Below, piece after piece: positions 14,711-53,503 of a stretch of DNA of 64,000 nt. This stretch comes from Streptomyces sp. 840.1 (GTDB taxonomy: Bacteria > Actinomycetota > Actinomycetes > Streptomycetales > Streptomycetaceae). The stretch covers positions 124,001-188,000 of the forward strand of contig NZ_RJUU01000004.1 of the NCBI RefSeq assembly GCF_003751445.1, given 5' to 3'. The notes under the pieces are model-generated. The model saw only the letters and a list, made by a program, of their open reading frames with translations, was not told the DNA's origin and ran no database searches. The translations under genes were made by a program, and so were the position numbers. Positions within the stretch are counted from its first letter, which is position 1, and every line of letters starts with the position of its first letter.

Positions 14711-14892
14711 GGTGTGTTCGGGGCGCGCACCCCCTCCCTCCCCTCTCTGCGAGCACGGAACGGGTATACGAGGCCCGCCCATACGGGCCTGATACGGCGC
14801 TCGGAGCCGTCTTCCGGCACGTTAGCCGCGCAGCGGAGCAAGGCCGGATTTCTCCACCGGCTCTGGACGGATCCGCGAACGTCGCGGCGGTG

Positions 14893-36223: not shown

Positions 36224-37968
36224 CTGCGCAACAGACCACCACACCCGTGACGGGCATCGTCGGCCTGGGCTCGACGGGCGAGGCTCTCCTGCGTCTGCTG
36301 CACCGCGCGGGCCACACCGTCGTCGCCGTGGACACCGACCTCGACGTCCTGGCCCGGACGGCAGGCCGCCTGAAGGCCGCCCTCGCCGCCGAGGACGGCC
36401 CGGAGCGCCCCGGTGTCACCTTCACCGCCGATCACGGGGCGCTGCGCGCGGCCGGCCTGGTCATCGAGGCGGTGCCGGACGACCCGGCCGTCAAGCACGA
36501 CGTGCTCGGCAGGATCGTCGCGGCCTGTCCGCCCGGCACCCCCGTGGTGACCACCACGGCGTCGCTGTCCGTCGCACGGCTGGCCGTCGCCACCGGCCGG
36601 CCGGACGACATCGCGGGGCTGCGGCTGTTCACCCCGCCCGTCGCCGGCAGCCCCGTCGAACCGGTACGGACGGCGCTGACCTCCCCGGACACCGCCGCCG
36701 CCGTGGACGCGCTGGTGGCCTCGGCCGGACTGAGCCCGGTCGCGGTCGGCGCCCGGCCCGCCGCCGACGCCACCGCGCTGATCCTCGGGTTCCTCAACCG
36801 GGCCGTCATCCTCTTCGACGAGGGGTACGCCACCCAGTACGACATCGACACCGCCATGCGGCTCGGCTGCGGACTGCCGGCGGGCCCCCTGGAGACGCTC
36901 GACCACATCGGCCTCAAGACCGCGCACACCGCGCTGACGGAGCTGTGGCGGCGCACCGGCGACTGCGCCTTCGAACCCGCCCCGCTGCTCAGCCGCATGG
37001 TCGCGGCCGGCCGGCTCGGCCGCACGAGCGGCGACGGGTTCTACACCTACGACGAGACCGGCACCGCGACCGGCTGTACGGCCGACGGCCCCGGCGACCC
37101 GGGTGCCGCAGCCGTGCGGCGCGTCGGTGTGCTCGGCTCCGGCGCGATGGCGCGCGGGATCGCCGAGGTCACGGCGGCCGCCGGGTACCCCACGGTCCTG
37201 GTGGCCCGCACCGCGGAGAAGGCCGACCAGGCGCTGCGGGCCGTCGAGGAGTCCCTCACCCGGGGCATCCGGCGCGGCCGGGTCACCGTGCAGACCAGGG
37301 ACTCCGCCCGGGAACTGCTCACCGGCGCCCATGACATGACGGCCCTGGCCGGCTGCGATCTGGTGATCGAGGCGGTGGCCGAGGACATCGACGTCAAGCG
37401 CGCGATGTTCGCAGCGCTCGCAGAGGTCTGCGCACCCGGCACCGTGCTGGCCACCACCACATCGAGCCTCTCCGTCGCCACCTGCGCCGATGCGGCCGGA
37501 CGGCCGGCCGACGTCGTCGGGATCCACTTCTTCAACCCCGCGCCGGTGATGCGACTGGTGGAGCTGGCGCACACCGAGACGGTGGACCAGCAGATCCTCG
37601 CCACGGCCCGTGCCTTCTGCCGCACCCTCGGCAAGACGACGGTGGCGTGCCCGGACCGCACCGGCTTCATCGTCAACAGCCTGCTGTTCCCCTACCTCGG
37701 CGCGGCCCTCGCCCTGCTGGAGCGGCCCGACGTGGACATCGAGGAGACTGACCACGCGATCCGGTCCGGATTCGGCTACCCCATGGGGCCGTTCGCGCTG
37801 CTCGACACCATCGGCCTCGACGTCTCACTCGCCATCCAGAACCGGCTGTACGAGTCCTTCAAGACACCCGAGCACGAACCGGCCGCTGTACTGGAAGAGT
37901 TGGTGGCCGCGGGACTGCTCGGCCGCAAGAACGGACGGGGGCTGCGCACCTCGGTCCCACGTCGCTGA
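36220..37968 (+). CDS. Duplicated 3-hydroxyacyl-CoA dehydrogenase
   Basis: 582 residues made of two 3-hydroxybutyryl-CoA dehydrogenase units. The second (about 300-582) is canonical: GVLGSGAMARGIAEV, LVIEAVAEDIDVKRAM, the catalytic-His motif GIHFFNPAPVMRLVE, and TGFIVNSLLFPYLG. The first (about 12-285) keeps GIVGLGSTGEALLRL and LVIEAVPDDPAVKHD, but its HFFNP region reads LRLFTPPVAGSP, so the catalytic His is missing. One half is probably active and the other structural or substrate-binding. Coupled by ATGA overlap to CCR, making 3-hydroxybutyryl-CoA for dehydration to crotonyl-CoA. Its last 144 bp overlap the LuxR gene on the other strand. Confidence 0.9.
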   Translation: MTAQQTTTPVTGIVGLGSTGEALLRLLHRAGHTVVAVDTDLDVLARTAGRLKAALAAEDGPERPGVTFTADHGALRAAGLVIEAVPDDPAVKHDVLGRIVAACPPGTPVVTTTASLSVARLAVATGRPDDIAGLRLFTPPVAGSPVEPVRTALTSPDTAAAVDALVASAGLSPVAVGARPAADATALILGFLNRAVILFDEGYATQYDIDTAMRLGCGLPAGPLETLDHIGLKTAHTALTELWRRTGDCAFEPAPLLSRMVAAGRLGRTSGDGFYTYDETGTATGCTADGPGDPGAAAVRRVGVLGSGAMARGIAEVTAAAGYPTVLVARTAEKADQALRAVEESLTRGIRRGRVTVQTRDSARELLTGAHDMTALAGCDLVIEAVAEDIDVKRAMFAALAEVCAPGTVLATTTSSLSVATCADAAGRPADVVGIHFFNPAPVMRLVELAHTETVDQQILATARAFCRTLGKTTVACPDRTGFIVNSLLFPYLGAALALLERPDVDIEETDHAIRSGFGYPMGPFALLDTIGLDVSLAIQNRLYESFKTPEHEPAAVLEELVAAGLLGRKNGRGLRTSVPRR

Positions 37969-40347
37969 CCGTTCCCCGGCCCCGGGGCCCGTCCCGCGGG
38001 CCGGGGGCCGCGCCGCCACGAGCTCCGCCAGGTCCCGGCGGGACTTCACGCGCAACTTGCGGTAGATCCGGGTGAGGTGCTGCTCCACCGTGCTGGTGGT
38101 GACGTACAGCCGGGCCGCGATGGCCCGGTTGGTGCAGCCGCCGGCCGCCAGCACCGCGACCCGCCGCTCGGCATCGGTCAGCCCGGCGATCGGATCGCCG
38201 GGCGCGGTGTCATCGCCGCGCAGGGCGCGCAGAGCGACGGCGGCGGGGGTGCTCCAGCCGGCGGCGCCCTGCGGCTCGAGCCGCCAGCCGGCCAGCAGGT
38301 CCCGGCAGGCGTGGAAGTCGCCGAGGGCGGCCTCGGGACGCCCCACGGCCAGCTGGTAGTGGCCCCTGGCCAGCAGATAGTGCAGCCCGGCCCGGGTGCG
38401 GAACATCGCGGCGGGCACCGGGACACGCAGCCGCGCCGCCGCCTCCTCGTACGCACCCCGGCGGGTCGCCGCCAGCACCGCGGCGGACAGCGGCATCCCG
38501 ATGGCCACCCCCCAGGCCCCCGGCGACAGCAGCGACAGCGCCCGGCCCGCGTGCCCGGCCGCGAGGTCGTGCTCGCCGGCGCGCCCGTGCACCACGGCCG
38601 AGGCGGCGGCGGCCACCGCCCGGCGGGCCGGGGTCGCCCGGGTCCGGTCCCCGCCGGCGAGCAGCTCACACCACCGGGCGACCCGTCCGGTCTCCCCCGT
38701 GTGCAGCAGCGCCGACAGGACGGCGGCGACGGGCGCCGGTGGCGCGTGGTCGTAGACGATTGACTCCAGCACCCGCTCGGCTGCTTCGTCCCGCTGCTCG
38801 GCCGCGCCTTCGGCCGGCTCCCGGCCGGTCCCCGGCGCACCGTGCGGGAACGGCCCGGTGCCCGTGCCCGGGTAGACGTACGCCAGCGCCTCGGCCGGCG
38901 CGCCCGGCCATCCGGGGCCGTGCGGTTCCGGCAGGGCCCGCGCCGCGCCGGCCGGACGCCCGTGCCAGAGCAGCAGCCCCACCGCGTCCTCCGTGTCCGT
39001 GGCGGCCCCCGCCCCGGCGCCGAGGCTCCGTTCGAGGTCGGGCAGGTGCCGGATCACGGCTGCCGGATCGCTCTCCCACTCGGCGCGGGCCAGCATCGTC
39101 AGCAGCCCGGCCTCCTCGTGGCCGCCGGCCCGGTGTGCGGCACGCAGGAAGTCCGCGGCCTGCCGCGCCCCGCCGCAGCTCATCGTGTGCCGGGCCGCTT
39201 CGGCGAGCACTTCGGCGGCCCACGCCGGACCGGGCAGGCCGCCGGCCGTATCGGCGGCGACCAGGTGGCGGGCGACCGAGGCCGGTTCTGCGCCGTTCTC
39301 GTACAGCATCCGGCCGGCCGCGGTGTGCAGCCGGTGGGACTCCTCGGCGGACAGCTCCTCCAGCACGGCCGCCCGGACGCCCTCGTGGCGCAGCCGTCCG
39401 CCGTCGAGCAGCCCGATCGCGTCGAGTTCGTCCAGGCAGGGGCCGACAGCGCGTTCGGGGGTCTCCAGCAGCCGGGCGAGCAGGGTGAGCGTCGAGGCCT
39501 CGGCGAGCACGGCCAGCCCGCGCGCGGCCGACACCGCGGGTGCTCCGGCTCCCCGCAGGCAGCCGGTGACGCCGCGCCGGAACGCGGTGCCGGCCACCGG
39601 ACGGGAGGGGCGCACCGGTTCACAGGCCCGGTGGTCGTCGAGCAGCCCGCGCAGCAGCCGCAGGTTCCCGCCGGTGAAGCGGTGCCAGTCGGGGGCGAGG
39701 CGCCGCGCCGTCGGCAGCTCCATCGCGCCGCCCGAGGACGCGGCCAGGAAGTCGGCGACCCCGTCGCTGTCCAACGTCGTGAGCGGTACGGCCTCGCAGC
39801 GGGGATGTCTCAGCAGCTCGGCCAGCGGCAGTGACAGCGGGGGCCGGGAGCAGGGCTGCGGGGCCCCGCTCATCACCAGCAGGATCCGGCTCGTCGCGAG
39901 CCGTCCGCACACATACAGCAGGCACCGCGCGGAGGCCTCGTCCATGTGGTGCACATCGTCGACGAGGATCACCACGGGGATGTCCGAGGCGAGTTCGCGC
40001 AGGGCCTCGTGGAGCACGGCCGGGTCGTCACCGCGCTCCTCGCGCGCCGAGGTGCCTCGCCCCGCTGCGGGGCCCCGTGCCCGCAGGTGGCGTTCGGCCT
40101 CCGGTCCGGCGCCGCTGAGCAGCTGCCCCACGACCCCCGACGGCAGATCGGTCTCGGCCGGGGACGCGGACGCGTTCAGCACCAGCGCGCCCGTGCGCCC
40201 GGCCTCCTGCGCGAAGGCCCGCAGCAGGCCGCTCTTGCCGGTGCCGGGGCTGCCGGTGACGAGCACAGCGCGGCCGTCGCCCCGCCGGGCAGCTTCGAAC
40301 AGCTCCCCGAGCAGGCCGAGTTGTTCGCCCTGCCGCGCCAGCCGCAC
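37825..40347 (-). CDS. LuxR-family large ATP-binding regulator (LAL)
   Basis: 840 residues. N-terminal AAA-like NTPase with Walker A VTGSPGTGKSGLL and Walker B VVILVDDVHHMDEAS, a long helical TPR-like middle, and a C-terminal LuxR helix-turn-helix (LTDAERRVAVLAAGGCTNRA, TSTVEQHLTRIYRKLRVKSR). LAL proteins activate biosynthetic operons. GTG 40347 is chosen by similarity of the N-terminus to LAL proteins and the G-rich leader. After the helix-turn-helix about 55 residues run on as antisense of the dehydrogenase gene, a tail most relatives lack. The nearby CCCCTAGGGG site is a possible target. Confidence 0.9.
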   Translation of the reverse strand: MRLARQGEQLGLLGELFEAARRGDGRAVLVTGSPGTGKSGLLRAFAQEAGRTGALVLNASASPAETDLPSGVVGQLLSGAGPEAERHLRARGPAAGRGTSAREERGDDPAVLHEALRELASDIPVVILVDDVHHMDEASARCLLYVCGRLATSRILLVMSGAPQPCSRPPLSLPLAELLRHPRCEAVPLTTLDSDGVADFLAASSGGAMELPTARRLAPDWHRFTGGNLRLLRGLLDDHRACEPVRPSRPVAGTAFRRGVTGCLRGAGAPAVSAARGLAVLAEASTLTLLARLLETPERAVGPCLDELDAIGLLDGGRLRHEGVRAAVLEELSAEESHRLHTAAGRMLYENGAEPASVARHLVAADTAGGLPGPAWAAEVLAEAARHTMSCGGARQAADFLRAAHRAGGHEEAGLLTMLARAEWESDPAAVIRHLPDLERSLGAGAGAATDTEDAVGLLLWHGRPAGAARALPEPHGPGWPGAPAEALAYVYPGTGTGPFPHGAPGTGREPAEGAAEQRDEAAERVLESIVYDHAPPAPVAAVLSALLHTGETGRVARWCELLAGGDRTRATPARRAVAAAASAVVHGRAGEHDLAAGHAGRALSLLSPGAWGVAIGMPLSAAVLAATRRGAYEEAAARLRVPVPAAMFRTRAGLHYLLARGHYQLAVGRPEAALGDFHACRDLLAGWRLEPQGAAGWSTPAAVALRALRGDDTAPGDPIAGLTDAERRVAVLAAGGCTNRAIAARLYVTTSTVEQHLTRIYRKLRVKSRRDLAELVAARPPARGTGPGAGERSATWDRGAQPPSVLAAEQSRGHQLFQYSGRFVLGCLEGLVQPVLDGE

Positions 40348-40565
40348 CGGCCGCCCCCTCGTCTCCGGGCCACTGTGATGGCCGCCGTCATCTCCTGGAA
40401 AGTCTGCACAGGACCGTGGAAGCCCCGCTGGTACCGGACCGGAGCCCCGGTCGAGCCGCTGGTGAGCGCCCCGGCCGGGCTGCCGGGCAGCGGGTCCTGA
40501 TCGCCCTGGGGACCGAGCCGGCGGTGAATCCCGGCCGGTGCCGGGAGCGGCCTGCCCGCCGTCTC

Positions 40566-41411
40566 CTAGAACGGCACCGCCGGCACGGCCACCGGCTCCG
40601 GCAGTGCCAGCAGCCGGGGGGCGCTCCGGTCCCACGGGAAACCGTGGTGCAGGTGGAAGACGGACGGCACATCGGCATCGGCCGCCACGGCGACGGCCGC
40701 CAGCACATCGGGCACCGGCTCCAGCTCGATGAACCGCCACGGCAGCGCGCCCTCGGTCCCGGGCGGCCGGAATCCCCGCACACCCCGGTCCTCGGCCAGG
40801 GTGAACGCGAAGCTGTCGAAGGGCAGCCCCAGCCCGAGGCCGCGCGCCTTGGAGTACGCCTCCTTCAGCGTCCACAGCCGCAGCACCCGGCGGTTACGGG
40901 GGCGGCCCGGTGCCGCCAGCGCCACCCAGGCCTGTTCCTCGTCCGCGAAGGTCTCCACGATCGCCTCGAATCCCTGGTCGCCTCGGTCGAGGCGCTCCAC
41001 GTCCACCCCGATCCGATGGCGCCGGACCACGCCGAGGAAGTTGTGGCCGGTGGTGTGGGACAGGTTGAAGTCCAGCTCCCGGCCGCCTCGCGGGAGCCCT
41101 TCCACGGGCTTCTGGAGGAACGGCCGCCCCCGCGAGGACCGCCAGATCACGGCCTCCGCCTCGGGCACCCCGCCCTCCAGCGCCAGTACCCGGCGTACGA
41201 GTGTGTGGGCGACGAGGTACTGACGCCGGTCGCGCTCGAACAGGAACTGGCTCGCGATCTCCCGCTCGTGCTCGTCCAGCCAGTGTGCGGCCAGAGTGGT
41301 GGCGATCCCGGGAGCGAGTTCGTCGTTGGGGCAGAACCACAGTTTGACGGGTTCGGGCCGGTCGGGCTCGAACCCGGTGACGGAGTGCCCCGCCACTGCG
41401 AGGCCGGTCAT
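40566..41411 (-). CDS. Sfp-type 4'-phosphopantetheinyl transferase (copy 2)
   Basis: 281 residues. DFNLSHTTGHNFLGVVRRHR, Mg motif GVDVERLDRG and WTLKEAYSKARGLGLGLPF are complete. Only distantly similar to the PPTase at 14893-15744. Its ATG (41411, GGAAGGACGG upstream) overlaps the stop of the degenerate ketosynthase gene, which in turn follows the tandem-ACP gene by 28 bp. It is therefore very likely dedicated to that tandem ACP. Confidence 0.94.
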   Translation of the reverse strand: MTGLAVAGHSVTGFEPDRPEPVKLWFCPNDELAPGIATTLAAHWLDEHEREIASQFLFERDRRQYLVAHTLVRRVLALEGGVPEAEAVIWRSSRGRPFLQKPVEGLPRGGRELDFNLSHTTGHNFLGVVRRHRIGVDVERLDRGDQGFEAIVETFADEEQAWVALAAPGRPRNRRVLRLWTLKEAYSKARGLGLGLPFDSFAFTLAEDRGVRGFRPPGTEGALPWRFIELEPVPDVLAAVAVAADADVPSVFHLHHGFPWDRSAPRLLALPEPVAVPAVPF

Positions 41412-43315
41412 CCGTCCTTCCCCGTCTCCCGCGCGGCCACCTGGAGTCCGATCCACAGGGGGCGGCGCAGGAAGGCCGAAGGGGGCAGCGGCACCAAGGC
41501 GCCGCCGGGGCCCGGCCGGGACTCCAGGGCCGCCCAGTCGACGTCGAGCCCGGACAGCCACAGGCGCGTCAGCTGCTCGATGCGGCCACCGCGCCACAGG
41601 GCGCCGAGGAAGTCGCGGGTCTCCGGCGCCTCGCCCAGGCCCAGCGCATCCGATCCGCCCGTGCGCAGATCCACGTAACGCACACCGCTGTCAGGGACAC
41701 AACCGTGCCGGGCACGGCTGTCGCGCACCTCGCCGCCGGCTTCCCCGGCCTCTGTGCTCCAGCCCACGAACCCCCTCAGCAAGCTCACCAGTTGGGGGAT
41801 GTCGCGGGCCAGGAACGCGATCCGGCAGGGTTGTGCGACGCGGCCGGCCCGCAGGGCGCGGGCCACATCCGGGAGTGCCACCCGTTCGTCACCGGTGGCG
41901 GTGTTCCCGCTCCCGCCGTTGTCCGAGGCGAGCCAGTCGGCGAGCCGGGCGGCGGTGGCGGCGAGATGGCCGGGGGTGGGGGCGGACAGCAGGATCAGCT
42001 CGTCGCGTTCGACGGTGTCGTCCCACGCCTCGTCGCGGCCGGACCGCGGATGCCGGCCCGGGACGAACTCCTCCAGGACGGCACGGGCGTCGAACGGGCC
42101 GCCCGCACCGGCGACCTCGACGACGGCCACCCGGGGAAGCTCCCGGCCCGAAGCGTCGCGGGGCCGGGGCCAGGACGTTGCGGTGTCCCTGCCCCGGGCG
42201 GGCGCGAGCGTGCCGTACCGCAGCTGGAGCACAGCGGCGGTCAGGGCCGCGAGACCGGTGACGGCCCCGGCGTGGCCCACCCGGCAGGCGGTGGTCTCCC
42301 GGGTCTCGCGCACGCCCGGTGTACCGGTCGTCCCGCGCCCGCCCGGTGTGCCGGTCCTGGCGCCGGCGCCCGTCGAGGTGGAACGTACGACGGCATGCAC
42401 ATGGTCACCGTCGGCGAGGGCGCGGGCGAGCGGCTTGAGCACCACCGCGCCCACGCCCTCCCCCGCGCCCTGCCGCCCGCGCGAGGGATGCAGCAGCAAC
42501 TCCACCCCGCCCGCCACGGCCGCCGCGCACTCGCCACGCCGCAGCGCACCGACGGCAAGGTGCACCGCGACGAGCGCGGAGGACTCGGCGGTGTCGACGG
42601 CCTGCGCCGGGCCGCTCAGTCCGAGCAGGCCGGACAGCCTGCCCGCCAGACTCCAGTGACCGCTCTCCGGCATCTCCCGGCCGCCACGCGCCCAGGCCTC
42701 GGCGGCCACCAACGCGTAGTCGGCGGAGCTGACCCCGACGAACACCCCGAGGCCGCGCGGCGCCCCATCGGGGCCGGTCAGGGAGTCGAGCCGGGTGCCG
42801 GTGCAGCCGGCGTCCTCCAGCGCCTCCCAGGCGGTTTCGAGGAAGAGCCGTTCCTGAGGGTCGATCAGGCTCGCCCGCTGCCCGGTCAGCCCCCAGAACT
42901 CCGCGTCGAAGTCGGCGACCCCGTCCAGGAAGTGTCCGCGCTGCCCCGCGCCGAGCGGCGACCCGCCGGGGCGGGTGAGCGGCGCGGCCGACGAGGTGTC
43001 CCGTCCCTCGCGCACGTTCTGCCAGTAGAAACGCAGATCGGGGGCGAGCGGATACCGGCCGGCCATGCCGACGACGGCGAACCGGTCGTCGGTGTCCAAG
43101 GCGTCGGCGCTGTACGGAGGCTGCGCCGGCAGCTGCTGCGGGAGCGCCGACGGTGTCTGCGGCGTCCCCGGACCGGGGCCCCGCGAAGGGGCCGGGTCCG
43201 CAGCCGGCGCCGGGCCGGGTCCGGGCGCGGCCTCCAGTCCGGCCAGCAGCTGTACGGCCTGCCCGCGCTCCAGGGTCCCGGCTTTGAACCGGATGAGTAT
43301 TTCTCGTTCGTCCAT
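41408..43315 (-). CDS. Degenerate trans-AT-like ketosynthase (Cys to Glu, no HGTGT)
   Basis: 635 residues. A short helical linker (MDEREILIRFKAGTLERGQA) and Pro/Ala spacer precede a type I KS fold: DRFAVVGMAGRYPLAPDLRF, IDPQERLFLETAWEALEDAG. Where DTACSS is expected it reads DTAESSALVAVHLAVGALRR, so residue 244 is Glu (GAG at 42584-42586). The HGTGT segment is absent: KPLARALADGDHVHAVV passes through a short Gly/Thr-rich stretch straight to CRVGHAGAVTGLAALTAAV, keeping only the second His (348). After the KS comes the C-terminal linker of trans-AT PKS (ELILLSAPTPGHLAATAARL, LTRLWLSGLDVDWAALESRP, PPSAFLRRPLW). It cannot condense; it may decarboxylate, dock, or pass acyl groups between the tandem ACPs and the type II machinery. 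Confidence 0.88.
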   Translation of the reverse strand: MDEREILIRFKAGTLERGQAVQLLAGLEAAPGPGPAPAADPAPSRGPGPGTPQTPSALPQQLPAQPPYSADALDTDDRFAVVGMAGRYPLAPDLRFYWQNVREGRDTSSAAPLTRPGGSPLGAGQRGHFLDGVADFDAEFWGLTGQRASLIDPQERLFLETAWEALEDAGCTGTRLDSLTGPDGAPRGLGVFVGVSSADYALVAAEAWARGGREMPESGHWSLAGRLSGLLGLSGPAQAVDTAESSALVAVHLAVGALRRGECAAAVAGGVELLLHPSRGRQGAGEGVGAVVLKPLARALADGDHVHAVVRSTSTGAGARTGTPGGRGTTGTPGVRETRETTACRVGHAGAVTGLAALTAAVLQLRYGTLAPARGRDTATSWPRPRDASGRELPRVAVVEVAGAGGPFDARAVLEEFVPGRHPRSGRDEAWDDTVERDELILLSAPTPGHLAATAARLADWLASDNGGSGNTATGDERVALPDVARALRAGRVAQPCRIAFLARDIPQLVSLLRGFVGWSTEAGEAGGEVRDSRARHGCVPDSGVRYVDLRTGGSDALGLGEAPETRDFLGALWRGGRIEQLTRLWLSGLDVDWAALESRPGPGGALVPLPPSAFLRRPLWIGLQVAARETGKDG

Positions 43316-43343
43316 GGTCTTCCGCCTGTTCGAGCCCGCCTGT

Positions 43344-44189
43344 TCAAGCCCGGCCGGGCAGCAGCGTGAGCGCCTCGTCGATGGTGAGCCGGTCGTCGCG
43401 TACCGCGTCGAGCAGCGCCCGTACCCCCAGTGGCTCGGTTTCGGGAGCGGCCGCCCCCGAAACCGCCGTCACCGGCGCCTGCACGGGTGCCGGGGCACCG
43501 TCTGCGGAGGCGATGTGCGAGGCGATGTGGGAGGCGAGGGCGGCAAGGTCGGGGTGGTCGTAGAGCGTGACCGCCCGCTCGCTCATGCCGTACGTACGGT
43601 TGACGACCGCCACGAACTGCGCGCCGATGATGGAGTCCACCCCCAGCAGACCGAAGGCGGCGGTGGGGTCGATGTCCCAGGGGTCGCAGCACAGGAGGCG
43701 GGCGAGTTCCTCACGCAGGAGGTCGAGGATCATCCGCGCCCCCGGGCCGGGGGGTGCGGGCGCCGCAACCGGCCCGCCCGGCAGGGGCGCAGGCCCGGCA
43801 ACGGACGCAGGCGCCGGCACGGGCACCGGGACCGGCCACGGCATGGTCGGGGGCACGGCCCGGGTCCCGGGCCCGGACGACGGGCTCTCCGCAGCCTGCG
43901 AGGCCCGCACCCCCAGCTCACGCGCCATGTGCCGGGCGAAGTCCAGCGGGGTCGGATGGTCGAGCAGCACAGAGGCCTTCACGGCGGTGCCGTACCGGGC
44001 GTTCACCGTGGCGACGAACTCCACGGTCAGCAGCGAGTCGACGCCCAGCGACCGGAAGGTCTGCTCGGGATCGATCTTCTCGGGCTTCAGCCGCAGCGCG
44101 TCGGCGAGCGCCGCGACGAGATCGGTCACCATGTCGCGGGGCGGCACAACGGCACCCGTCCTGAGGGGAGTTCGACGTTCGTGGGGCAT
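43344..44189 (-). CDS. Tandem acyl carrier protein
   Basis: 281 residues with two type I-like ACP domains. ACP1 (about 20-95) carries FRSLGVDSLLTVEFVATVNA, ACP2 (about 150-225) carries FGLLGVDSIIGAQFVAVVNR; both attachment serines are intact. They are joined by a 55-residue Pro/Ala linker. The C-terminal LLDAVRDDRLTIDEALTLL repeats the helical pattern seen at the N-terminus of the next gene's ketosynthase (ILIRFKAGTLERGQAVQLL), suggesting docking. ATG 44189 follows GGAG. GVDS-type ACPs with these flanks belong to modular, often trans-AT, PKS rather than to aromatic PKS. First gene of the ACP-ACP, KS-like, PPTase operon. Confidence 0.92.
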   Translation of the reverse strand: MPHERRTPLRTGAVVPPRDMVTDLVAALADALRLKPEKIDPEQTFRSLGVDSLLTVEFVATVNARYGTAVKASVLLDHPTPLDFARHMARELGVRASQAAESPSSGPGTRAVPPTMPWPVPVPVPAPASVAGPAPLPGGPVAAPAPPGPGARMILDLLREELARLLCCDPWDIDPTAAFGLLGVDSIIGAQFVAVVNRTYGMSERAVTLYDHPDLAALASHIASHIASADGAPAPVQAPVTAVSGAAAPETEPLGVRALLDAVRDDRLTIDEALTLLPGRA

Positions 44190-44326: not shown

Positions 44327-45046
44327 CTACGTCGTACGAGCGAGCCCTGTCGTCGTACGCGGAGCGCAGGGTGTCTCGGGCCGCGCGTCCGCCGCCTCGG
44401 CTTCCGGCGCCGAGGGGGCGCTCGCGGCAGGGACCGGCGGGCTGGTGCGATAGTTCACGACGTCCTCCGGCGGCACCAGAGCCGACAGCAGCGGCTCCCA
44501 CAGCGCGGCGACCCGGTCACTCAGCAGCGGATACGGCATACCGGTGCCGGCCAGCACCCCGATGCCGCACACCGTCGCGGACAGCAGCGTCGCGGGCCCG
44601 TTGCCCGTCGCACGGGCCCGCAGCGCCCCCGCCTCGCGGGCCTGGTCCAGGAGCCGCAGCACCTCGGTGATCCAGTCCTGGTGGAAGTCGGTGACGGGTG
44701 GCTGCCGCCCGGCGCACTCATTGGTGATCCGGAAGCTGGCCCGGATGACCGGGTCGTCGTGGAGCGTCCTGGCCAGCCAGTGCGTCATGTCGATGAGCAT
44801 CTGCACCGGCGGTACGCCCGCCTCCCAGCGCTCCCTGACGAAGCCTTGCAGCATGGCGCGCCCGCGCTCCTGCACCGCGTCGGCGAGCCCGTCCTTGGAG
44901 GAGAAGTGGAAGTACAGCGCGCCCTTCGTCATCCCTGCGGCCACGGCGATCTGTCCCAGCGTCGCGTTGGCATAGCCGTTCCGGTTGAACATCTCAGCGC
45001 CCGCGTGGACCAGCCTCTGGCGGGTCCGCTGCGATCTGGCCTGCAT
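44327..45046 (-). CDS. TetR-family regulator, gamma-butyrolactone receptor-like (1)
   Basis: 239 residues. N-terminal helix-turn-helix (QIAVAAGMTKGALYFHFSSK) very like ArpA/ScbR proteins, then an all-helical ligand domain and a low-complexity C-terminal tail. ATG 45046 gives the standard start MQARSQRTRQRL; GGAG lies 11 nt upstream. It follows the SARP 3 gene on the same strand with only 16 bp between, so both share a promoter. Probably represses the cluster until a butyrolactone or the product binds. Confidence 0.85.
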   Translation of the reverse strand: MQARSQRTRQRLVHAGAEMFNRNGYANATLGQIAVAAGMTKGALYFHFSSKDGLADAVQERGRAMLQGFVRERWEAGVPPVQMLIDMTHWLARTLHDDPVIRASFRITNECAGRQPPVTDFHQDWITEVLRLLDQAREAGALRARATGNGPATLLSATVCGIGVLAGTGMPYPLLSDRVAALWEPLLSALVPPEDVVNYRTSPPVPAASAPSAPEAEAADARPETPCAPRTTTGLARTT

Positions 45047-45062
45047 CTCGACCGCCTTCTCC

Positions 45063-45893
45063 TCAGCCGACCCGGCTGAGACGCTCGCCACCGGCAGCAA
45101 CCGGATCGAGGGTGGGCTCCGGACCTGACATCAGGATCGAACGCTGCAGCCGCCGCAGTCCGGCGGAGGGCTCGAACCCCAACTCCCGCACCAGAACGGA
45201 GCGCAGTCGCTGATAGGCGTCGAGCGCCTCGCTGCGGCGCCCGGAGCGGTGCAGCGCCAGCATGAACTGGCCGTGCAGGTTCTCGTGGGTGCGGTAGCGG
45301 CTGACCAGCACGCTCAGCTCACCCAGGATCTCGCGGTGCCGGCCCAGCCGAAGATCGGCTTCGATGCGCTGGTCGAGCGCGCAGAGCTGGGTCTCCTCCA
45401 GCCGCCGGATCTCCATCTCCAGCTGCGTCCCGGCCTGGATGTCGGCCAGCGCGGAGCCGGTCCACAGCGAGAGCGCCTCGCCCAACTGCCGGGCCGCGCC
45501 CGGGAAGTCCCCCGCGTCCATCGCCCGGTAACCCAGGCCCGCCAGCCGCTCGAACTCGCGCACATCGCTGGCGCCACCGGCGGTGTTGAGCAGGTAGCCC
45601 CCCGGCGTGGTGACGAGCACGTCCTTGGCGGAGCGCGGCGCGGCCCCTTCCGGGTCCCGCAGAAGTGCGGTCGCGATCAGGTCCCGCAGCTGCAGTACGT
45701 AGGTCTGCAGTGTGGTGCGGGCGCTGCGTGGTGGGCGGTCACTCCACAGTTCCTCGATCAGCGTGGCCACGGGCACGACCTGGTCGGCGTGCAACGCAAG
45801 CAGGGCCAGCACCTGACGTGGCTTCGGCGCCGTCGGCGTCACCGAGAGCCCGTTCTCGCGGACGGCCAACGCGCCCAATACATCGATATCCAC
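45063..45893 (-). CDS. SARP-family pathway activator (3)
   Basis: 276 residues. Winged helix (LGALAVRENGLSVTPTAPKP, LIEELWSDRPP, TTLQTYVLQLRDLI) and activation domain (LRSVLVRELGFEPSAGLRRL). Clearly a SARP but divergent from the duplicated pair at 5 and 29 kb; lacks their RRSSTFDLYAA terminus. GTG 45893 with AGGGGAAA upstream. A near-perfect ARE-like palindrome lies about 70-90 bp before the start, so this is the likely entry point of butyrolactone control into the cluster. Confidence 0.93.
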   Translation of the reverse strand: MDIDVLGALAVRENGLSVTPTAPKPRQVLALLALHADQVVPVATLIEELWSDRPPRSARTTLQTYVLQLRDLIATALLRDPEGAAPRSAKDVLVTTPGGYLLNTAGGASDVREFERLAGLGYRAMDAGDFPGAARQLGEALSLWTGSALADIQAGTQLEMEIRRLEETQLCALDQRIEADLRLGRHREILGELSVLVSRYRTHENLHGQFMLALHRSGRRSEALDAYQRLRSVLVRELGFEPSAGLRRLQRSILMSGPEPTLDPVAAGGERLSRVG

Positions 45894-45960
45894 GCCGTTT
45901 CCCCTATTCGTGCATGAATCGTGAGCCACTCGGAAGTACCTTGAGTAAAAAACAGGACAC

Positions 45961-45983
45961 ACGGTTTGTCAATATCAAACCGT
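45961..45983. promoter_or_regulatory. ARE-like palindrome before SARP 3
   Basis: ACGGTTTG (45961-45968) and CAAACCGT (45976-45983) are perfect inverted halves around a 7-nt spacer, in the AT-rich leader of SARP 3. Shape and GGTTT/AAACC halves match operators of ArpA/ScbR-type receptors. Confidence 0.6.
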
Positions 45984-46063
45984 CCACGCTGTTTTATTTG
46001 GCCGCAGCCGAGCCCATCTCGCGTCGCTGACCAGGACGTTCACAGATCGCACAAAACAGAGAA

Positions 46064-46134: not shown

Positions 46135-46791
46135 TCAGTCCGTTGCTGACGCGGCCGATGTCACGGTGCCCCGGAGGGGGTCTCTCGGGGACGGAACCGA
46201 CCTGCACGGACTCTGCTGACTCGCCAGTCTCGGCAGCATCAGATCCCAGAATCCGGCGATCGTCTCCGTGGACAGCCATTCCTTGTCCTCGCTGCCGAGC
46301 ACCTCGAGGCCCACGGTCACTGCCACGATGGCGGGCGAGGCGTCGGCAGGTGACACCCCTTCGGCGAGTCCGCCTTCCGCGTCGGCACGCCGCAGCATGT
46401 CCTCGATCCAGCGCTGCCACCGCTGCCGGAGCCGGGCCTCCGCCCGCCAGGCCAGGTCCCCGCCCAGCTCGAAGCCGGCCTGGATCACGATGTCGTCGGC
46501 CAGCCTGCTCATCAGCTCGTGCGTGGTGTCCACAAGTACCTGCAGAGCGCAGTCTCCCCCGTTCACCGCCTCTTCGATGATCCGGCGCACGGTCTCCGCC
46601 GCCTCGTCCTCGACGGCCTGGGCGAGCATCTTCTTGTTCTCGAAGTGGAAGTGCAGCGCACCGTTGCTCACTCCGGCCCGGCGGCTGATCGCAGCGAGCG
46701 AGGCGGGGGCGAAGCCCTCCTGCGCGAACACTTCGGCGGCGGCATGGATCAACGACTGACGTGTGCGCGCCGCACGGTCCTGCTTGACCAT
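46135..46791 (-). CDS. TetR-family regulator, gamma-butyrolactone receptor-like (2)
   Basis: 218 residues. Helix-turn-helix AISRRAGVSNGALHFHFENK, with FHF as in receptor homologues, followed by a helical ligand domain. ATG 46791 has AGGAG 8 nt upstream and yields MVKQDRAARTRQSL, the family's usual opening. The divergence from the other two TetR proteins suggests a pseudo-receptor (ScbR2/JadR2 class) that responds to antibiotics rather than to butyrolactones. It is followed by a strong terminator. Confidence 0.85.
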   Translation of the reverse strand: MVKQDRAARTRQSLIHAAAEVFAQEGFAPASLAAISRRAGVSNGALHFHFENKKMLAQAVEDEAAETVRRIIEEAVNGGDCALQVLVDTTHELMSRLADDIVIQAGFELGGDLAWRAEARLRQRWQRWIEDMLRRADAEGGLAEGVSPADASPAIVAVTVGLEVLGSEDKEWLSTETIAGFWDLMLPRLASQQSPCRSVPSPRDPLRGTVTSAASATD

Positions 46792-46867
46792 CAAATGTCT
46801 CCTGATTACAGGGCTCAGCGGCTTGGCCCCCAAGGGAGCGGACCCACCGCGCCCCGCCGTTCTTGAC

Positions 46868-48454
46868 TTACTGCGGAGGGTTGCCGTGTTTGCGGGACGG
46901 CAGGTCTGCGTGCTTGGAGCGGAGCATGGCCAGTGAGGCGATCAGGACTTCGCGGGTCTGGGCGGGGTCGATGACGTCGTCGACCAGGCCGCGCTCGGCG
47001 GCGTAGTAGGGGTGCATCAGTTCGGCCTTGTACTCCTTGACCATGCGGGTCCGCATGGCCTCGGGGTCCTCGGCGTCGGCGATCTGCCGGCGGAAGATGA
47101 CGTTGGCGGCGCCCTCGGCGCCCATCACCGCGATCTCGTTGGTCGGCCAGGCATAGGTGAGGTCGGCGCCGATGGACTGGCTGTCCATGACGATGTACGC
47201 ACCGCCGTAGGCCTTGCGCAGGATCAACGAGATCCTCGGCACCGTGGCGTTGCAGTAGGCGTAGAGCAGCTTCGCCCCGTGCCGGATGATTCCACCGTGC
47301 TCCTGATCCACACCGGGCAGGAAGCCGGGTACGTCCAAAAGGGTGATGATGGGGATGTTGAAGGCGTCGCACATCTGGACGAACCTGGCGGCCTTCTCGG
47401 ACGCCTCGATGTCCAGGACACCGGCCAGGGCCTGCGGCTGGTTGGCGACGATGCCGACGACCTGGCCGTCCAGGCGGGCCAGCGCGCAGATGATGTTGCG
47501 GGCCCAGCGCTCGTGGATCTCCAGGTAGTCGCCCTCGTCGACGAGCTCCTCGATGACCTTGTGCATGTCGTACGGGCGGTTGCCGTCGGCCGGGACCAGG
47601 TCCAGCAGGACGTCACCACGCCGGTCGGCCGGATCATCACTCTCCGCCACCGGCGGGTTCTCACGGTTGTTCGAGGGCAGCATCCCGATCAGGTACCGGA
47701 CCTCCGCGATGCACGTCTCCTCGTCGTCGTACGCGAAGTGCGCGACACCCGAGGTCTCCGCGTGCACATCGGCACCGCCCAGACCGTTCTGGGTGATCTC
47801 CTCACCCGTGACCGCCTTCACGACGTCCGGTCCGGTGATGAACATCTGCGAGGTCTCACGGACCATGAACACAAAATCCGTCAGCGCCGGGCTGTAGGCC
47901 GCACCACCCGCACACGGGCCGAGCATCACGCTGATCTGCGGGATCACACCCGAAGCCCGCGTGTTGCGCTGGAAAATACCGCCGTACCCGGCGAGCGCCG
48001 ACACGCCCTCCTGGATACGGGCGCCGGCACCGTCGTTCAGCGAGACCAGCGGCGCACCCGCCGAGATGGCCATGTCCATGATCTTATGGATCTTCGTCGC
48101 GTGAGCCTCACCCAGCGCCCCACCGAAAATCCGGAAATCGTGCGCGTAGACGAAGACCGTACGGCCCTCCACCGTGCCCCAGCCGGTGATGACACCATCC
48201 GTATACGGCTTCTTCGCCTCCAGACCGAACCCCGTCGCCCGATGCCGACGCAACTGCTCGACCTCCCGGAACGAACCCGGATCCACCAGCAGCTCAATGC
48301 GCTCACGCGCCGTCAGCTTGCCCTTCGCGTGCTGCGCCTCGGTCGCCCGGTCACTCGGCCCACGCCGCGCCTGCTCACGCAGCGCCAGCAGTTCGGCCAC
48401 ACGGCCACGGGTATCGCTCGGTTCACCGGCCCCGGCGGGCCTCCCCACCGACAT
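46868..48454 (-). CDS. Acyl-CoA carboxylase beta subunit (carboxyltransferase)
   Basis: 528 residues, propionyl/acetyl-CoA carboxylase beta type. KLTARERIELLVDPGSFREV, VSLNDGAGARIQEGVSALAG, and the oxyanion-forming GPCAGGAAYSPALTDFVFMV in the N-half; LLDVPGFLPGVDQEHGGIIR and RKAYGGAYIVMDSQSIGADL in the C-half. It makes malonyl- or methylmalonyl-CoA with a biotinylated alpha subunit that must be encoded elsewhere. The epsilon gene lies upstream on the same strand. An extra carboxylase in a type II cluster boosts extender supply. Confidence 0.94.
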   Translation of the reverse strand: MSVGRPAGAGEPSDTRGRVAELLALREQARRGPSDRATEAQHAKGKLTARERIELLVDPGSFREVEQLRRHRATGFGLEAKKPYTDGVITGWGTVEGRTVFVYAHDFRIFGGALGEAHATKIHKIMDMAISAGAPLVSLNDGAGARIQEGVSALAGYGGIFQRNTRASGVIPQISVMLGPCAGGAAYSPALTDFVFMVRETSQMFITGPDVVKAVTGEEITQNGLGGADVHAETSGVAHFAYDDEETCIAEVRYLIGMLPSNNRENPPVAESDDPADRRGDVLLDLVPADGNRPYDMHKVIEELVDEGDYLEIHERWARNIICALARLDGQVVGIVANQPQALAGVLDIEASEKAARFVQMCDAFNIPIITLLDVPGFLPGVDQEHGGIIRHGAKLLYAYCNATVPRISLILRKAYGGAYIVMDSQSIGADLTYAWPTNEIAVMGAEGAANVIFRRQIADAEDPEAMRTRMVKEYKAELMHPYYAAERGLVDDVIDPAQTREVLIASLAMLRSKHADLPSRKHGNPPQ

Positions 48455-48565: not shown

Positions 48566-48781
48566 CTAACGCCAGCTCTGCGGCGCCCTGTACGGGGCCT
48601 GTTCCCAGCGCCGCCACACGACCGGGCGACCCTCCACACCACTCCTGCGCGCGGGGGCCACGACCCGGTTGCGCGCGAGCACCGAGAGCAAAGCCTCGTT
48701 GAGTGCGCTCAGTTCGTCCTGGTTCGCCCTACCGCGCTCCACTCGCGCCACCCCGGCTGCGTCAAGGCGGAATCCACTCAT
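48566..48781 (-). CDS. Acyl-CoA carboxylase epsilon subunit
   Basis: 71 residues. Small actinobacterial epsilon subunits carry a run like VERGRANQDELSALNEALLS and end in an aromatic/arginine tail; here the tail is APYRAPQSWR, as in PccE/AccE proteins. It binds the carboxyltransferase beta subunit and raises activity. ATG 48781 has AGGAGG 6 nt upstream. The gene precedes the beta subunit by 111 bp, with a possible ARE between them. Confidence 0.8.
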   Translation of the reverse strand: MSGFRLDAAGVARVERGRANQDELSALNEALLSVLARNRVVAPARRSGVEGRPVVWRRWEQAPYRAPQSWR

Positions 48782-48950
48782 GAAGGCCTCCTTCCTCGTC
48801 AGGAAACCCTGGAGCAACAAACTGGAGCGGCGGTCGAGCGGCAATCGCGGGGGACGCTCCCCGGCCGGGGGCGAGTTGTGAAGGCAGCATCACACTCTCA
48901 AGCGGAGCTCGCGGTTTCGCTTCTACGGAGCACCAAAGGGCGCTAGAAAT

Positions 48951-48970: not shown

Positions 48971-49025
48971 TTTGGTGTCCCGCGAGGGGCTCACCGGTTT
49001 TCGTTACCGTTGTTTTGGGGGAAAA

Positions 49026-50021
49026 ATGACTGCTGCAACGATCCAGCTTGCTCACCCGCTCACGAACGAGGCATCTGCACGGGACCGGTCAGCTTCATCG
49101 ATCGCGCCTCCTCTGTTCCGCTTCCCGTCACTGACGACCACGGTCCCCAAGGAGTTCGTCCACCGGGCCGCCGTCGCCGAAGTCATGCTCACCGACTGGA
49201 AGCGCGAAGATGACGTCCACTTCAAGGTGACGGCCCAGTGGCCCCGCGGGCACAGCTTCTTCAGCCCCATCGGCGCACACCACGACCCGCTGCTGGCGGC
49301 CGAGACGATACGTCAGGTGGGCTCGCTCCTCGCCCACGCGGAGTTCGGCGTTCCGTTCGGCCACCAGTTCCTGATGTGGGACCTCGAGTACGCCGTCGAG
49401 CCCGACCAGATGCTCATCGGCGGCACACCCGCATCACTCGACATCGACGTCACCTGCACCGAGGTCAAGCGGCGCGGCAACGCCCTGACCGGACTGCGCT
49501 ACGAAGCGGTGATCCACCGCGACGGGAAGCCGGCCGTGCGGGGAGGCGGGGCCTTCACCTGCACCACACCGGCCGTGTACCGCAGGCTCCGGGGAGACCG
49601 CTGCACCGCCGAGGACCGGCCCCGGCTCCCCCTCATGGCCCCCGCCTCGCCCCAGAGAGTGGGCCGTATGTCGCCCATCGACGTGGTGCTCTCCCCCGTC
49701 GGGGAGACGAACCGCTGGCAGTTGAGAGCCGACACCCGCCACCACGTCCTCTTCGACCACCCGGTCGACCACGTCCCGGGAATGGTGCTCCTGGAGGCAG
49801 CCCGGCAGGCGGCCGCAGCGGCCCTCGACAACTCCTCGATGCTGCCCGTCGGCATCGTGAGCGAGTTCCACCGGTACGCCGAACTGGACTCGCCCTGCAT
49901 GATCCAGGCGCAGCACCTGCCCGGTACGGCCGGCGTCGAGAAGTCGGTGCTGGTGACCGCCCACCAGGACGGGGACCTCGTGTTCACCTCCACGGTGAAG
50001 ACACTGTCACCCGAGAGCTGA
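49026..50021 (+). CDS. AfsA-type gamma-butyrolactone synthase
   Basis: 331 residues with two hot-dog AfsA repeats: about 30-170 (VPKEFVHRAAVAEVMLTDWK, DPLLAAETIRQVGSLLAHA) and about 195-325 (DHPVDHVPGMVLLEAARQAA). AfsA-type enzymes condense a beta-ketoacyl group with dihydroxyacetone phosphate to start A-factor-like signal synthesis. ATG 49026 follows GGGGGAAAA; an in-frame ATG at 48972 overlaps the operator and is less likely. With the receptor at 51120-51788 it forms a complete signalling pair. Its 3' end overlaps the NmrA-like gene by 15 bp, convergent. Confidence 0.93.
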   Translation: MTAATIQLAHPLTNEASARDRSASSIAPPLFRFPSLTTTVPKEFVHRAAVAEVMLTDWKREDDVHFKVTAQWPRGHSFFSPIGAHHDPLLAAETIRQVGSLLAHAEFGVPFGHQFLMWDLEYAVEPDQMLIGGTPASLDIDVTCTEVKRRGNALTGLRYEAVIHRDGKPAVRGGGAFTCTTPAVYRRLRGDRCTAEDRPRLPLMAPASPQRVGRMSPIDVVLSPVGETNRWQLRADTRHHVLFDHPVDHVPGMVLLEAARQAAAAALDNSSMLPVGIVSEFHRYAELDSPCMIQAQHLPGTAGVEKSVLVTAHQDGDLVFTSTVKTLSPES

Positions 50022-50903
50022 TCCGCCCGTGCCGATGTCTTCGCCCTCATGAGGCCGCCTCGGGGCGAAGGCATCGGCATGGTCCGCGGCCCACTGGGCG
50101 AACGACCGGGCGGGCCGCCCCGTCACCTCGCGGACCCCGCTTCCCACGGCTGCTTTGGCCCCGTCCCGCTGCCGCCGCGCACTGCACAGCAACGCGTCCG
50201 CCAGTTCGGGCGGGTGGCGGCGCAGCAGTGCGGCGCGCGCGTCCTCCGGCGCCAGTTCCTCGAAACGCAGCGACACCCCGAGCACCTGCGCGAGCAACCG
50301 TGTCTGTTCGGCCGCGCTGATCGCCTCCGGCCCGGTCAGCGTGTACGCCGCGCCCTCGTGTCCGTCCTCGGTGAGCGCCCGCACCGCCACCTCGGCGATG
50401 TCGCGCGGGTCGACACACGCGTTCACCGACGTCCCGTACAGAGCCCGCACGACGCGCTCCGAGCGGACCGTCCCTGCCCAGGACAGGCAGTTGGACATGA
50501 ACGAACGAGGCCGCAGCAGGGTCCAGGCCATCCCGGACTGCCGCAGGAGTTCCTCATTGGCACGCTGCCAACGGGTGACCAGGTCGTCCGCCCGCGCATC
50601 GGTGACGGAGGCAGCGGACAACGTCACGACGTGGCGCACACCTGCCGCCCGCGCCGCCCGGAGAAAGACGGCGCCTTCGTCACCGGCGACCCGGCTCGTG
50701 ACGAGGAAGGCCTTACGCACCCCGCGCAGCGCCGGGGTCAGCGAGTCAATGCTGGCGTAGTCCCCGGCCACTGCCTGCGCCCCGGGCCGCGTGACCGTGA
50801 CGCCTGCGGGGTTCCTGGTCATGAGACGCAGCGGCACTCCGGGCGGGAAGGAACGCACCACTTCCCGACCGACCGTCCCTGTCGCACCTGTCACCAGAAT
50901 CAT
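50007..50903 (-). CDS. NmrA-like NAD(P)-binding reductase
   Basis: 298 residues, atypical SDR. GATGTVGREVVRSF at the N-terminus binds NAD(P); VVTLSAASVTD and WTLLRPRSFMSNCLSWAG follow. No YxxxK catalytic pair, as usual for NmrA/HSCARG proteins. Placed between the AfsA-type synthase and the receptor, it may reduce a butenolide or keto group of the signal (as BprA or ScbB-type reductases do), or it may be a polyketide-tailoring or redox-sensing protein. Confidence 0.8.
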   Translation of the reverse strand: MILVTGATGTVGREVVRSFPPGVPLRLMTRNPAGVTVTRPGAQAVAGDYASIDSLTPALRGVRKAFLVTSRVAGDEGAVFLRAARAAGVRHVVTLSAASVTDARADDLVTRWQRANEELLRQSGMAWTLLRPRSFMSNCLSWAGTVRSERVVRALYGTSVNACVDPRDIAEVAVRALTEDGHEGAAYTLTGPEAISAAEQTRLLAQVLGVSLRFEELAPEDARAALLRRHPPELADALLCSARRQRDGAKAAVGSGVREVTGRPARSFAQWAADHADAFAPRRPHEGEDIGTGGSALG

Positions 50904-51064: not shown

Positions 51065-51119
51065 TTTCATGCGCTACGGTGTCTTCGATGCAGTAGTCAC
51101 GTAAATGGAGGAGGCGAGA

Positions 51120-51788
51120 GTGGCGAAGCAGGATCGAGCCATCCGTACACGTCAGACGATCCTGTCGGCAGCGGCAAACGTGTTCGAAAAGCACGGTTAC
51201 CAGGCAGCCACGATCGCCGAGATACTGAGCGAGGCGCAAGTCACCAAGGGGGCCCTGTACTTCCACTTCCAGTCCAAGGAAGAGCTGGCCCAGGGTGTGC
51301 TCAGCGAGCAGGAACAGCGCCTGGGCGTCCCCGAACACGCCTGCAAGACCCAGGAGCTCGTGGACGTCATCATGCTGCACGCCTACCGCCTGCAGACGGA
51401 CCCCATGGTCCGCGCCGGCGTGCGGCTGTCCCTGGACCAGCAGGCGCACGATCTCGACCGCAGTGGCCCCTTCCTGAACTGGGGCGAGGTCCTGCGAGGG
51501 CTCCTCGACCAGGCGCAGGCCCAGGGGGAGCTCCTCCCGCACGTAGTGCCCAGGGAGACCTCCGACGTCCTGGTGGGGTGCTTCGCAGGTGTCCAGGCGA
51601 TGTCGCAGGCGCTCAGCAAGTACCAGGACCTCGCCGAGCGGGTCTGCTCCCTGCTGCGCCACCTGCTGCCCAATGTGGTGCTCGCGTCCGTCCTGGCCTC
51701 GGTGGACATCTCACGCACCCGAGGCGTGGCGGTATTCACCGAGCTGACCGGGGTCGTCGACGAGGAGGCCGTCGCCGCGGTGGTCTAG
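51120..51788 (+). CDS. TetR-family gamma-butyrolactone receptor (3)
   Basis: 222 residues. Helix-turn-helix EILSEAQVTKGALYFHFQSK and a ligand domain with AYRLQTDPMVRAGVRLSLDQ and FLNWGEVLRGLLDQAQAQGE, the most canonical ArpA/ScbR pattern of the three TetR proteins. GTG 51120 is preferred (GGAGGAGGCGAGA before it) over the ATG at 51105, which lies on the ribosome site. Probably the true signal receptor paired with the AfsA-type synthase. Ends in a bidirectional terminator. Confidence 0.92.
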   Translation: MAKQDRAIRTRQTILSAAANVFEKHGYQAATIAEILSEAQVTKGALYFHFQSKEELAQGVLSEQEQRLGVPEHACKTQELVDVIMLHAYRLQTDPMVRAGVRLSLDQQAHDLDRSGPFLNWGEVLRGLLDQAQAQGELLPHVVPRETSDVLVGCFAGVQAMSQALSKYQDLAERVCSLLRHLLPNVVLASVLASVDISRTRGVAVFTELTGVVDEEAVAAVV

Positions 51789-51851
51789 GGCCTCTCGTTT
51801 GGATCAGGCCGGACACCGCGAGCCCGGCCTGATCCAAACGAAAGACCCTAG
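51785..51851. terminator. Bidirectional terminator overlapping two stop codons
   Basis: 28-nt arms 51785-51812 and 51824-51851 pair with two mismatches around an 11-nt loop. Each end contains the TAG stop of one of the convergent genes (receptor and FAD monooxygenase), so the hairpin terminates both transcripts. Confidence 0.88.
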
Positions 51852-53380: not shown

Positions 53381-53503
53381 CCTGGGCCTCCCCCTCTTTG
53401 CGCCCGGAGCGTCCCCACGCCCCTGGTCATCAACGGACCACATACGGAAACGCAGGAGAGGGCTTCGCCCCGTTCTTCTCGCGAACACCTCTCCGCCGAG
53501 AAA

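Follow-up and report, generated by a model that had tools for sequence, protein, structure and literature searches.

The stretch of DNA analyzed here (the window) comprises 64,000 nucleotides of Streptomyces sp. 840.1, positions 124001-188000 of a 202,935-base contig in an 8.84 Mb genome of four contigs. At 40566-44189, on the reverse strand, it encodes a triad of genes for an acyl carrier protein (ACP) didomain (ACP2), a pseudo-ketosynthase (KSx) and a phosphopantetheinyl transferase (PPTase). ACP2 (43344..44189, -) includes two PP-binding stretches (E 3.7e-29) in which both LGVDS serines are present. It ends in docking helices (C-terminal tail ALLDAVRDDRLTIDEALTLL), an organization like that of ACP5a-ACP5b-CDD of VirA (CDD, C-terminal docking domain). 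KSx (41408..43315, -; 635 aa) comprises docking helices, a ketosynthase (KS) fold without the catalytic Cys or HGTGT, and a ketosynthase-acyltransferase (KS-AT) linker. The docking helices (residues 1-30; 43226..43315, -) were assigned from a match to PDB entry 2n5d and from helices in a structure model (residues 3-11 and 17-29). Codon 244 (42584..42586, -), at the place of the catalytic Cys, encodes Glu within a DTAESS motif at residue 241.

Profile searches matched the N-terminal half of KSx to ketoacyl-synt (E 6.8e-50) and its linker to a RhiE-like KS linker (E 2.1e-8); the C-terminal half was barely matched (E 0.15). The structure model (mean pLDDT 79.6, pTM 0.80) has the fold of a trans-acyltransferase (trans-AT) KS, and its best Foldseek match by E-value is 4z37 (probability 1.00, TMq 0.66). 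The PPTase (40566..41411, -; ACPS E 1.3e-15) also matches AASDHPPT_N and is predicted to be an active Sfp-type enzyme, a type recognized by an ACPS-superfamily domain in a protein of ~230-280 aa. Its ATG start (41411-41409) shares ATGA with the TGA stop of KSx (41410-41408). An initial annotation of this region had described a trans-AT-like KS with its linker, Glu244 in place of Cys, loss of HGTGT, a two-domain ACP and a PPTase gene overlapping the KS end, and all of these features are borne out by the alignment, motif search, profile matches and structure model. Database records often annotate the triad genes just as 'polyketide synthase', which can mislead cluster prediction.

Conservation of the triad and loss of KS catalytic residues

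A scan of 84,980 genomes returned 114 relatives; 80 were retained, representing 79 loci. Together with six plasmid loci taken from the 20 best rows of a homologue list, these yielded 39 short dead-KS candidates, and 38 loci were left after a modular fragment at a contig edge (L080) was dropped. Because two genes are split over two contigs (L038/L063 and L050/L082, paired by assembly name and matched residues), the 38 loci represent 36 genes. ACP2 precedes KSx in 34/38 loci, and the other four begin at a contig edge. The PPTase follows KSx in 35/38; two loci end at a contig edge, and one (L034) has no PPTase. This synteny confirms that the triad is a real unit, as first proposed. Docking helices open KSx in 35/35 starts, the docking tail was seen by eye in 34/35 ACP2 ends (all but that of L002), and both carrier serines were found by pattern in 30/35.

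Active ketosynthases are recognized by a Cys-His-His triad (in CSS, HGTGT and NIGH) that KSx lacks. There are 217 KSx homologues at E 1e-60 or better, and the 120 of these that were listed were aligned with the window sequence. In the resulting 121 sequences, some of them partial, there is no Cys at the catalytic site (one sequence, P0030, has a gap there) and no HGTGT. The Cys is replaced by Glu (70), Ala (16), Trp (13), Gln (9), Asp (6), Gly (5) or Val (1), and the His of NIGH is mostly Asp (70) or Glu (17), with His in 14. The same motif search did pick up Cys and HGTGT in modular KSs from the retrieved loci, so it is able to detect them. Thus, KSx is probably a pseudo-ketosynthase with a non-condensing job, in agreement with the first view of it.

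The initial annotation had held that intact homologues in related clusters would speak for recent decay, and the 121 sequences include none. A FastTree phylogeny (one run, 468 columns) was built from 107 intact and 20 dead KSs, the latter left after thinning of the 22 dead loci that passed the filter; in it, all 20 dead KSs form one clade (support 1.0). Since neither Cys nor HGTGT was found in the 121 sequences (one with a gap at the Cys site) and the sampled dead KSs are monophyletic, recent decay of KSx was rejected. The dead KSs and ten KSs from the virginiamycin-type open reading frames (ORFs) described below together form a 30-tip clade (support 0.999). Since internal branches of this clade have weak support (0.26), the dead clade may be nested within the virginiamycin-type KSs. 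By the Nei-Gojobori method, applied to 10 pairs, dN/dS is 0.24-0.73 for KSx and 0.28-0.59 for ACP2, below 1 in 10/10 pairs for both. The PPTase has values of 0-0.28, and the best match to a Streptomyces antibiotic regulatory protein (SARP) has values of 0.07-0.16. KSx and ACP2 are constrained, but more loosely than their neighbours.

Some variants of the genes were also seen. One relative (L122:1167-2765) has a very long Pro/Ala/Gly spacer between the docking helices and the KS body. An alignment of the region upstream of ACP2 includes conserved stretches in close relatives. One genome (G208) has two same-scoring KSx matches near both ends of a 9.1-Mb contig (C1:103386-103628 and 8973905-8974147), probably within terminal inverted repeats. 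Another (G142, C67:100024-100161) has a KSx linker match in a 68-aa frame, perhaps a decayed copy, and no CDOM match (CDOM is introduced below).

Relationship to virginiamycin M-type loci

ACP2 residues 19-93 have 2mf4 as their best match (80 bits) and residues 139-227 have 4ca3 (88 bits). In passages of PMC10006238, these entries are the VirA-module ACP5a and ACP5b of virginiamycin M, and ACP2 is collinear with ACP5a followed by ACP5b. The only PDB sequence match to the first 38 residues of KSx is 2n5d (E 3.7e-4), which excerpts of PMC9113145 describe as the VirA-VirFG four-helix docking complex. This match, together with the ACP2 tail, identifies by sequence the two-helix C- and N-terminal motifs of a four-helix-bundle docking pair.

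Thirteen loci are of the virginiamycin (vir) type (L029, L031-L033, L035, L036, L040-L042, L044, L046, L048, L052). From sequence matches rather than products, we infer that these are streptogramin A clusters. The profiled locus L046 encodes an ACP pair, a hydroxymethylglutaryl-type synthase (HMGS), an enoyl-CoA hydratase (ECH), KS-ketoreductase-ACP-KS and condensation-adenylation-peptidyl carrier protein-nitroreductase-KS. Identity between KSx and the KSs of vir-type ORFs is 38-45% for the second KS and 29-38% for the first (the L031 ORF is cut, and its KS order is not readable). The docking helices of KSx match those preceding the first KS. The simplest path to KSx would be an internal deletion that joined these helices to the second KS. 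ACP2 matches the ends of upstream ORFs in seven vir-type loci (30-48% identity over 251-271 aa, tail included). The PPTase is 58-61% identical over ~270 aa to PPTases of L029, L036 and L046 and 56% identical to a cut PPTase in L042, so that same-clade PPTases are found within the flank in 4/13 vir-type loci; identity to other PPTases in the loci is 32-39%.

Thus, the three genes share one kind of probable source locus. A streptogramin A synthase is a complete multimodular polyketide synthase-nonribosomal peptide synthetase (PKS-NRPS) with HMGS and ECH. The triad consists of an ACP didomain, a dead KS and a PPTase only, and neither HMGS nor ECH is encoded among the profiled ORFs of the window, which are not all of its ORFs. 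This comparison covers the triad; the genome encodes other modular PKSs as well. By sequence, the triad is very probably a joint that was captured from a virginiamycin M-type trans-AT PKS and silenced and that no longer performs KS chemistry.

Versions of this joint without the KS also exist. A triad-type PPTase is found at 1e-50 in 61 plasmid records, ten of which were newly examined around this gene. Six of the ten encode KSx (annotated lengths 490-592 aa; HGTG in 0/6), and four (L116, L119, L120 and L121) have the PPTase without a KSx next to it. The second ACP2 serine is Thr in L116 and L120, both serines are kept in L121, and ACP2 is degenerate in L119. Across these four whole records, a search returned other KSs only (best 45% identity, in a 1865-aa frame), not counting KS frames of 863-943 aa that lie apart from the PPTase. 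Thus, some islands can do without KSx, and it is the PPTase that persists. L116 is pSGRIFU1 of S. griseofuscus, and its genes are ordered in agreement with the srr numbering published for S. rochei pSLA2-L (srrB, orf79; srrG, orf81; srrA, orf82; srrP, orf83; srrO, orf84; srrX, orf85; from portions of PMC7564063).

Genomic setting and co-occurring genes

A regulatory and signalling cassette (44327-53488) adjoins the triad, and the order of the genes from 40566 to 53488 is that on related plasmids. The contig itself appears to be a giant Streptomyces plasmid, because genes near the cassette encode, by profile match, a DUF6009 protein and a Prim-Pol primase, as on the related plasmids. Next to ACP2 is a TetR-family regulator (44327..45100, -; profile and synteny) in the place of the plasmids' ScbR, followed by genes recognized by profile matches for a SARP regulator (BTAD; 45063..45962, -) and a TetR-family regulator, also in an ScbR place (46135..46833, -). 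Then come an acyl-CoA carboxylase beta subunit (46868..48454, -; Carboxyl_trans E 1.1e-206) and a small ORF (48566..48844, -) without a Pfam match, positioned like the carboxylase epsilon subunit on related plasmids. Also encoded are an AfsA/ScbA-type signal synthase (48972..50021, +; AfsA E 8.2e-44) and, again by profile match, an NAD(P)-binding reductase (50007..50903, -), a TetR-family regulator (51105..51788, +) and an FAD monooxygenase (51848..53488, -). Downstream of the PPTase is a LuxR-family regulator with an AAA ATPase (37825..40458, -, the true start not being fixed; AAA_16 and GerE).

Among the 38 triad loci, neighbours were counted within a flank of at most 10-12 kb, and several flanks are cut by contig ends. 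SARP genes are present in 37/38 loci (36/36 by gene), ScbR in 27, ScbA in 16, carboxylase beta in 14, the type II PKS ketosynthase KSalpha in 13, the chain-length factor (CLF) in 11 and LuxR in 9. Annotated neighbours vary among plasmids and may be an NRPS, a type I PKS or a type II PKS.

The initial annotation had placed the triad in a type II PKS cluster as a piece beside an aromatic PKS. The type II PKS of the window is real, as KSalpha (27335-28600), CLF (26082-27338) and ACP (25764-26027) were all matched; the regulatory cassette is closer to the triad. Because the window KSalpha is ~12 kb from the triad, beyond the flank, a search for KSalpha (E 1e-80) was extended to the full sequence of 20 genomes or records. 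In L021 and L060, KSalpha and KSx are ~10-11 kb apart, so that at least 15/38 loci have one nearby. At this threshold there is no KSalpha on the complete triad-bearing plasmids of L001, L002 and L004 or anywhere in the L047 genome. KSalpha is on other contigs only in L026, L028, L037, L043, L049, L054, L067 and L079 (60-63% identity) and on another contig in L016-L019 and L045 (71-90% identity), where it may yet be linked to the triad. L015 has a 96% match, whose contig was not matched up with that of the triad. Given the three triad-bearing complete plasmids without KSalpha, we rejected the triad as part of aromatic PKSs as such. A chain-length factor belongs to the type II CLF family and partners KSalpha. 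On the same grounds, and because KSx matches trans-AT KSs, KSx is not a chain-length factor. The triad goes with SARP/butyrolactone regulators and is not bound to type II PKSs.

A free-standing condensation-domain protein with a thioesterase (TE)-like tail, CDOM (12587..14782, -; Condensation E 1e-27), is encoded 26 kb from the triad in the window. Its HHALLDG motif (HHxxxDG) is intact, the TE-like tail includes GGFSGCG, and the protein is 57% identical to CDOM of L018. A second PPTase (14893..15744, -; ACPS E 1.4e-15) adjoins it. A condensation-domain protein is present within the flank in 13/38 triad loci, and CDOM occurs somewhere in 18/20 triad genomes or records (in part the same genomes as in the sample that follows). 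Only weak matches to CDOM were found in the vir-type loci. CDOM relatives at 1e-40 occur in 104 plasmid records.

Co-occurrence was assessed in an even draw of 295 Streptomyces genomes that includes the genome of the window. Per genome, 18 (KSx) or 3 (CDOM) first-look candidates were scored, and misses are possible. KSx-type linkers were matched at 1e-10 in 22/295 genomes, 17 in frames of <960 aa, counted as free-standing, and 5 in modular KSs. Two of the 22 gave no locus for a check of the Cys site; of the 20 loci checked, 11 have a dead site, the 5 modular KSs have an intact one and 4 have no visible site. CDOM was matched at 1e-50 in 47/295 genomes. It is present in 15/17 genomes with a free-standing KSx versus 32/278 others (Fisher p 1.4e-11), and all 5 modular-KS genomes are among these 32. 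In 12 of the 15 genomes, KSx and CDOM are on one contig within 90 kb.

The window also encodes an ABC-F protein (3058-5073, -) that resembles the producer self-resistance proteins TlrC/CarA/OleB. It scores 753 bits, below the cut-off of 800, against their model and 416 bits, above the cut-off of 380, against a general ABC-F model, and suggests a ribosome-targeting product nearby. The ORFs at 6086-7528 (-), 7666-11163 (-) and 58193-59098 (-) together make up a methyl-cycle set that includes ahcY, MTHFR and a metH-like ORF (the last by the look of its sequence only), and a plasmid of S. canus has such a set annotated next to CDOM. A zinc-type dehydrogenase family protein (34871-36223, +) clusters with an L003 gene annotated as crotonyl-CoA carboxylase/reductase.

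Possible function and comparison with known systems

We propose that the silenced joint serves as a docked carrier platform from which an acyl group is handed to a partner enzyme, and we assign this reading as a whole a probability of roughly one half. The PPTase would convert ACP2 to its holo form, and an acyl group from elsewhere (an acyl-CoA, or the product of an adenylating ligase or carboxylase) would be loaded on it. Docking of the ACP2 tail on KSx would form a four-helix bundle. KSx, which could neither accept nor lengthen a chain, would hold and present holo-ACP2 without doing chemistry, and the ACP2 thioester would be used by a partner, most likely CDOM, in which HHxxxDG is kept. The system would be under butyrolactone/SARP control. 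The docked platform is the more probable part of this proposal and is somewhat more likely than not; handover to another enzyme is inferred, and the assignment of CDOM as acceptor is tentative. Transfer of a special acyl group (a starter or an ester side chain) had been suggested for this PKS piece. Acyl transfer to an ester or amide is possible, by CDOM rather than by KSx.

Several observations weigh against this proposal. Docking, loading and handover are predicted from the genes, and no acyl donor for ACP2 was identified. Neither the complete L001 plasmid nor the L054 genome encodes CDOM, which is present in the 32 sampled genomes without a free-standing KSx; its link to the triad may be co-inheritance on one island, without a functional tie. 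The docking tail of ACP2 is kept in the KS-less plasmid loci L116, L120 and L121, so the tail may have another partner, or KSx loss may be recent. KSx also evolves faster than the PPTase and SARP, as would a slow relic. In such a relic the PPTase alone would be useful, with KSx and ACP2 carried along. The four KS-less loci that encode the PPTase, the altered second serine or degenerate ACP2 in three of them, and the strongest constraint being on the PPTase are in line with this. However, the frames remain open over large divergence, dN/dS is <1, and docking helices and serines are widely kept, and we consider such a relic quite improbable.

The adjoining SARP genes raise a regulatory alternative, in which holo-ACP2/KSx would be a co-factor or sensor for the SARP and report the acyl/CoA state or a pathway intermediate. 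A SARP gene is ≤4 kb upstream in 29/31 testable loci, downstream in 18/36 and on both sides in 14/29. KSx distances track those of the upstream SARP (Mantel r 0.82, n 29) as they do those of ACP2 (0.77, n 32) and the PPTase (0.78, n 31), with lower values for the best KSalpha-like match (0.60, n 17) and ScbA (0.25, n 15); these correlations leave shared descent in. An accessory protein that aids a SARP has a precedent in TylU (as given in parts of PMC8910723). However, SARPs are dense in such islands and linkage explains the correlation too, the intact ACP serines and the PPTase look biosynthetic, and a profile search matched no DNA-binding domain in KSx or ACP2. We regard a regulatory role as unlikely; if true, carrier-protein loading would gate cluster expression on giant Streptomyces plasmids, and an assembly-line piece would have become a regulatory device. 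A role in signal biosynthesis, with ACP2 as dedicated carrier of the acyl chain for an autoregulator made by ScbA (or by an avenolide-type route), seems more doubtful still. ScbA is in the flank in 16 loci and ~13-23 kb away in L026, L043, L049, L067 and L079, carboxylase beta is present in 14, and L001 has an acyl-CoA dehydrogenase and P450 by ScbR. However, ScbA distances barely track KSx, the related S. griseofuscus island has ScbA without KSx, and AfsA matches are lacking in the draft triad genome L037 and on the triad contigs of the drafts L019, L028, L045 and L051. From this AfsA search, the triad as an obligate partner of ScbA was rejected.

Loading or decarboxylation by the KS had also been suggested. 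A loading KS of the KSQ type has Gln at the Cys position and keeps HGTGT. Gln (9) or Glu (70) at this position among the 121 sequences fits a KSQ-like decarboxylase or acyl transferase, but Ala, Trp, Gly and Asp also occur there, the His of NIGH is mostly replaced, and KSx of the window combines Glu244 with loss of HGTGT. Decarboxylation is unlikely because the residue varies and HGTGT is gone; the KSQ/decarboxylase assignment was therefore rejected, and a catalytic loading role of any kind is highly improbable.

In the triad, one inter-protein joint of a known synthase has very probably been moved as a unit into unrelated clusters, its chemistry lost and its carriers, docking helices and activating enzyme kept. 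The triad makes two questions testable, namely the role of pseudo-ketosynthases and the part of carrier proteins in SARP/butyrolactone control. Silent KSs, tandem ACPs and in-cluster PPTases are each known separately. For the free-standing triad as a combination, searches of the open-access literature (most subscription papers are outside this scope) returned no description.

Among known systems, KSQ loading KSs and chain-length factors are similar in that the Cys is replaced (by Gln in nine KSx relatives), but in KSx the site is not conserved as Gln, HGTGT is gone and the nearest relatives are trans-AT KSs. A KS0 keeps the Cys, has lost the His of HGTGT and can pass a chain on. KSx resembles the KS0 of trans-AT PKSs in being non-condensing and in its fold but lacks the Cys. 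The srr island of S. rochei pSLA2-L, compared via S. griseofuscus pSGRIFU1 only, has the signal synthase, regulators, ACP2, PPTase, SARPs and type II PKS in a similar order, but it is without KSx and its second ACP serine is Thr. The virginiamycin M (streptogramin A) trans-AT PKS differs in that the triad genes are free-standing, the first KS and following domains are absent, and KSx lacks Cys and HGTGT. It shares with the triad the ACP pair, docking tail, docking helices, KS fold, linker and same-clade PPTase.

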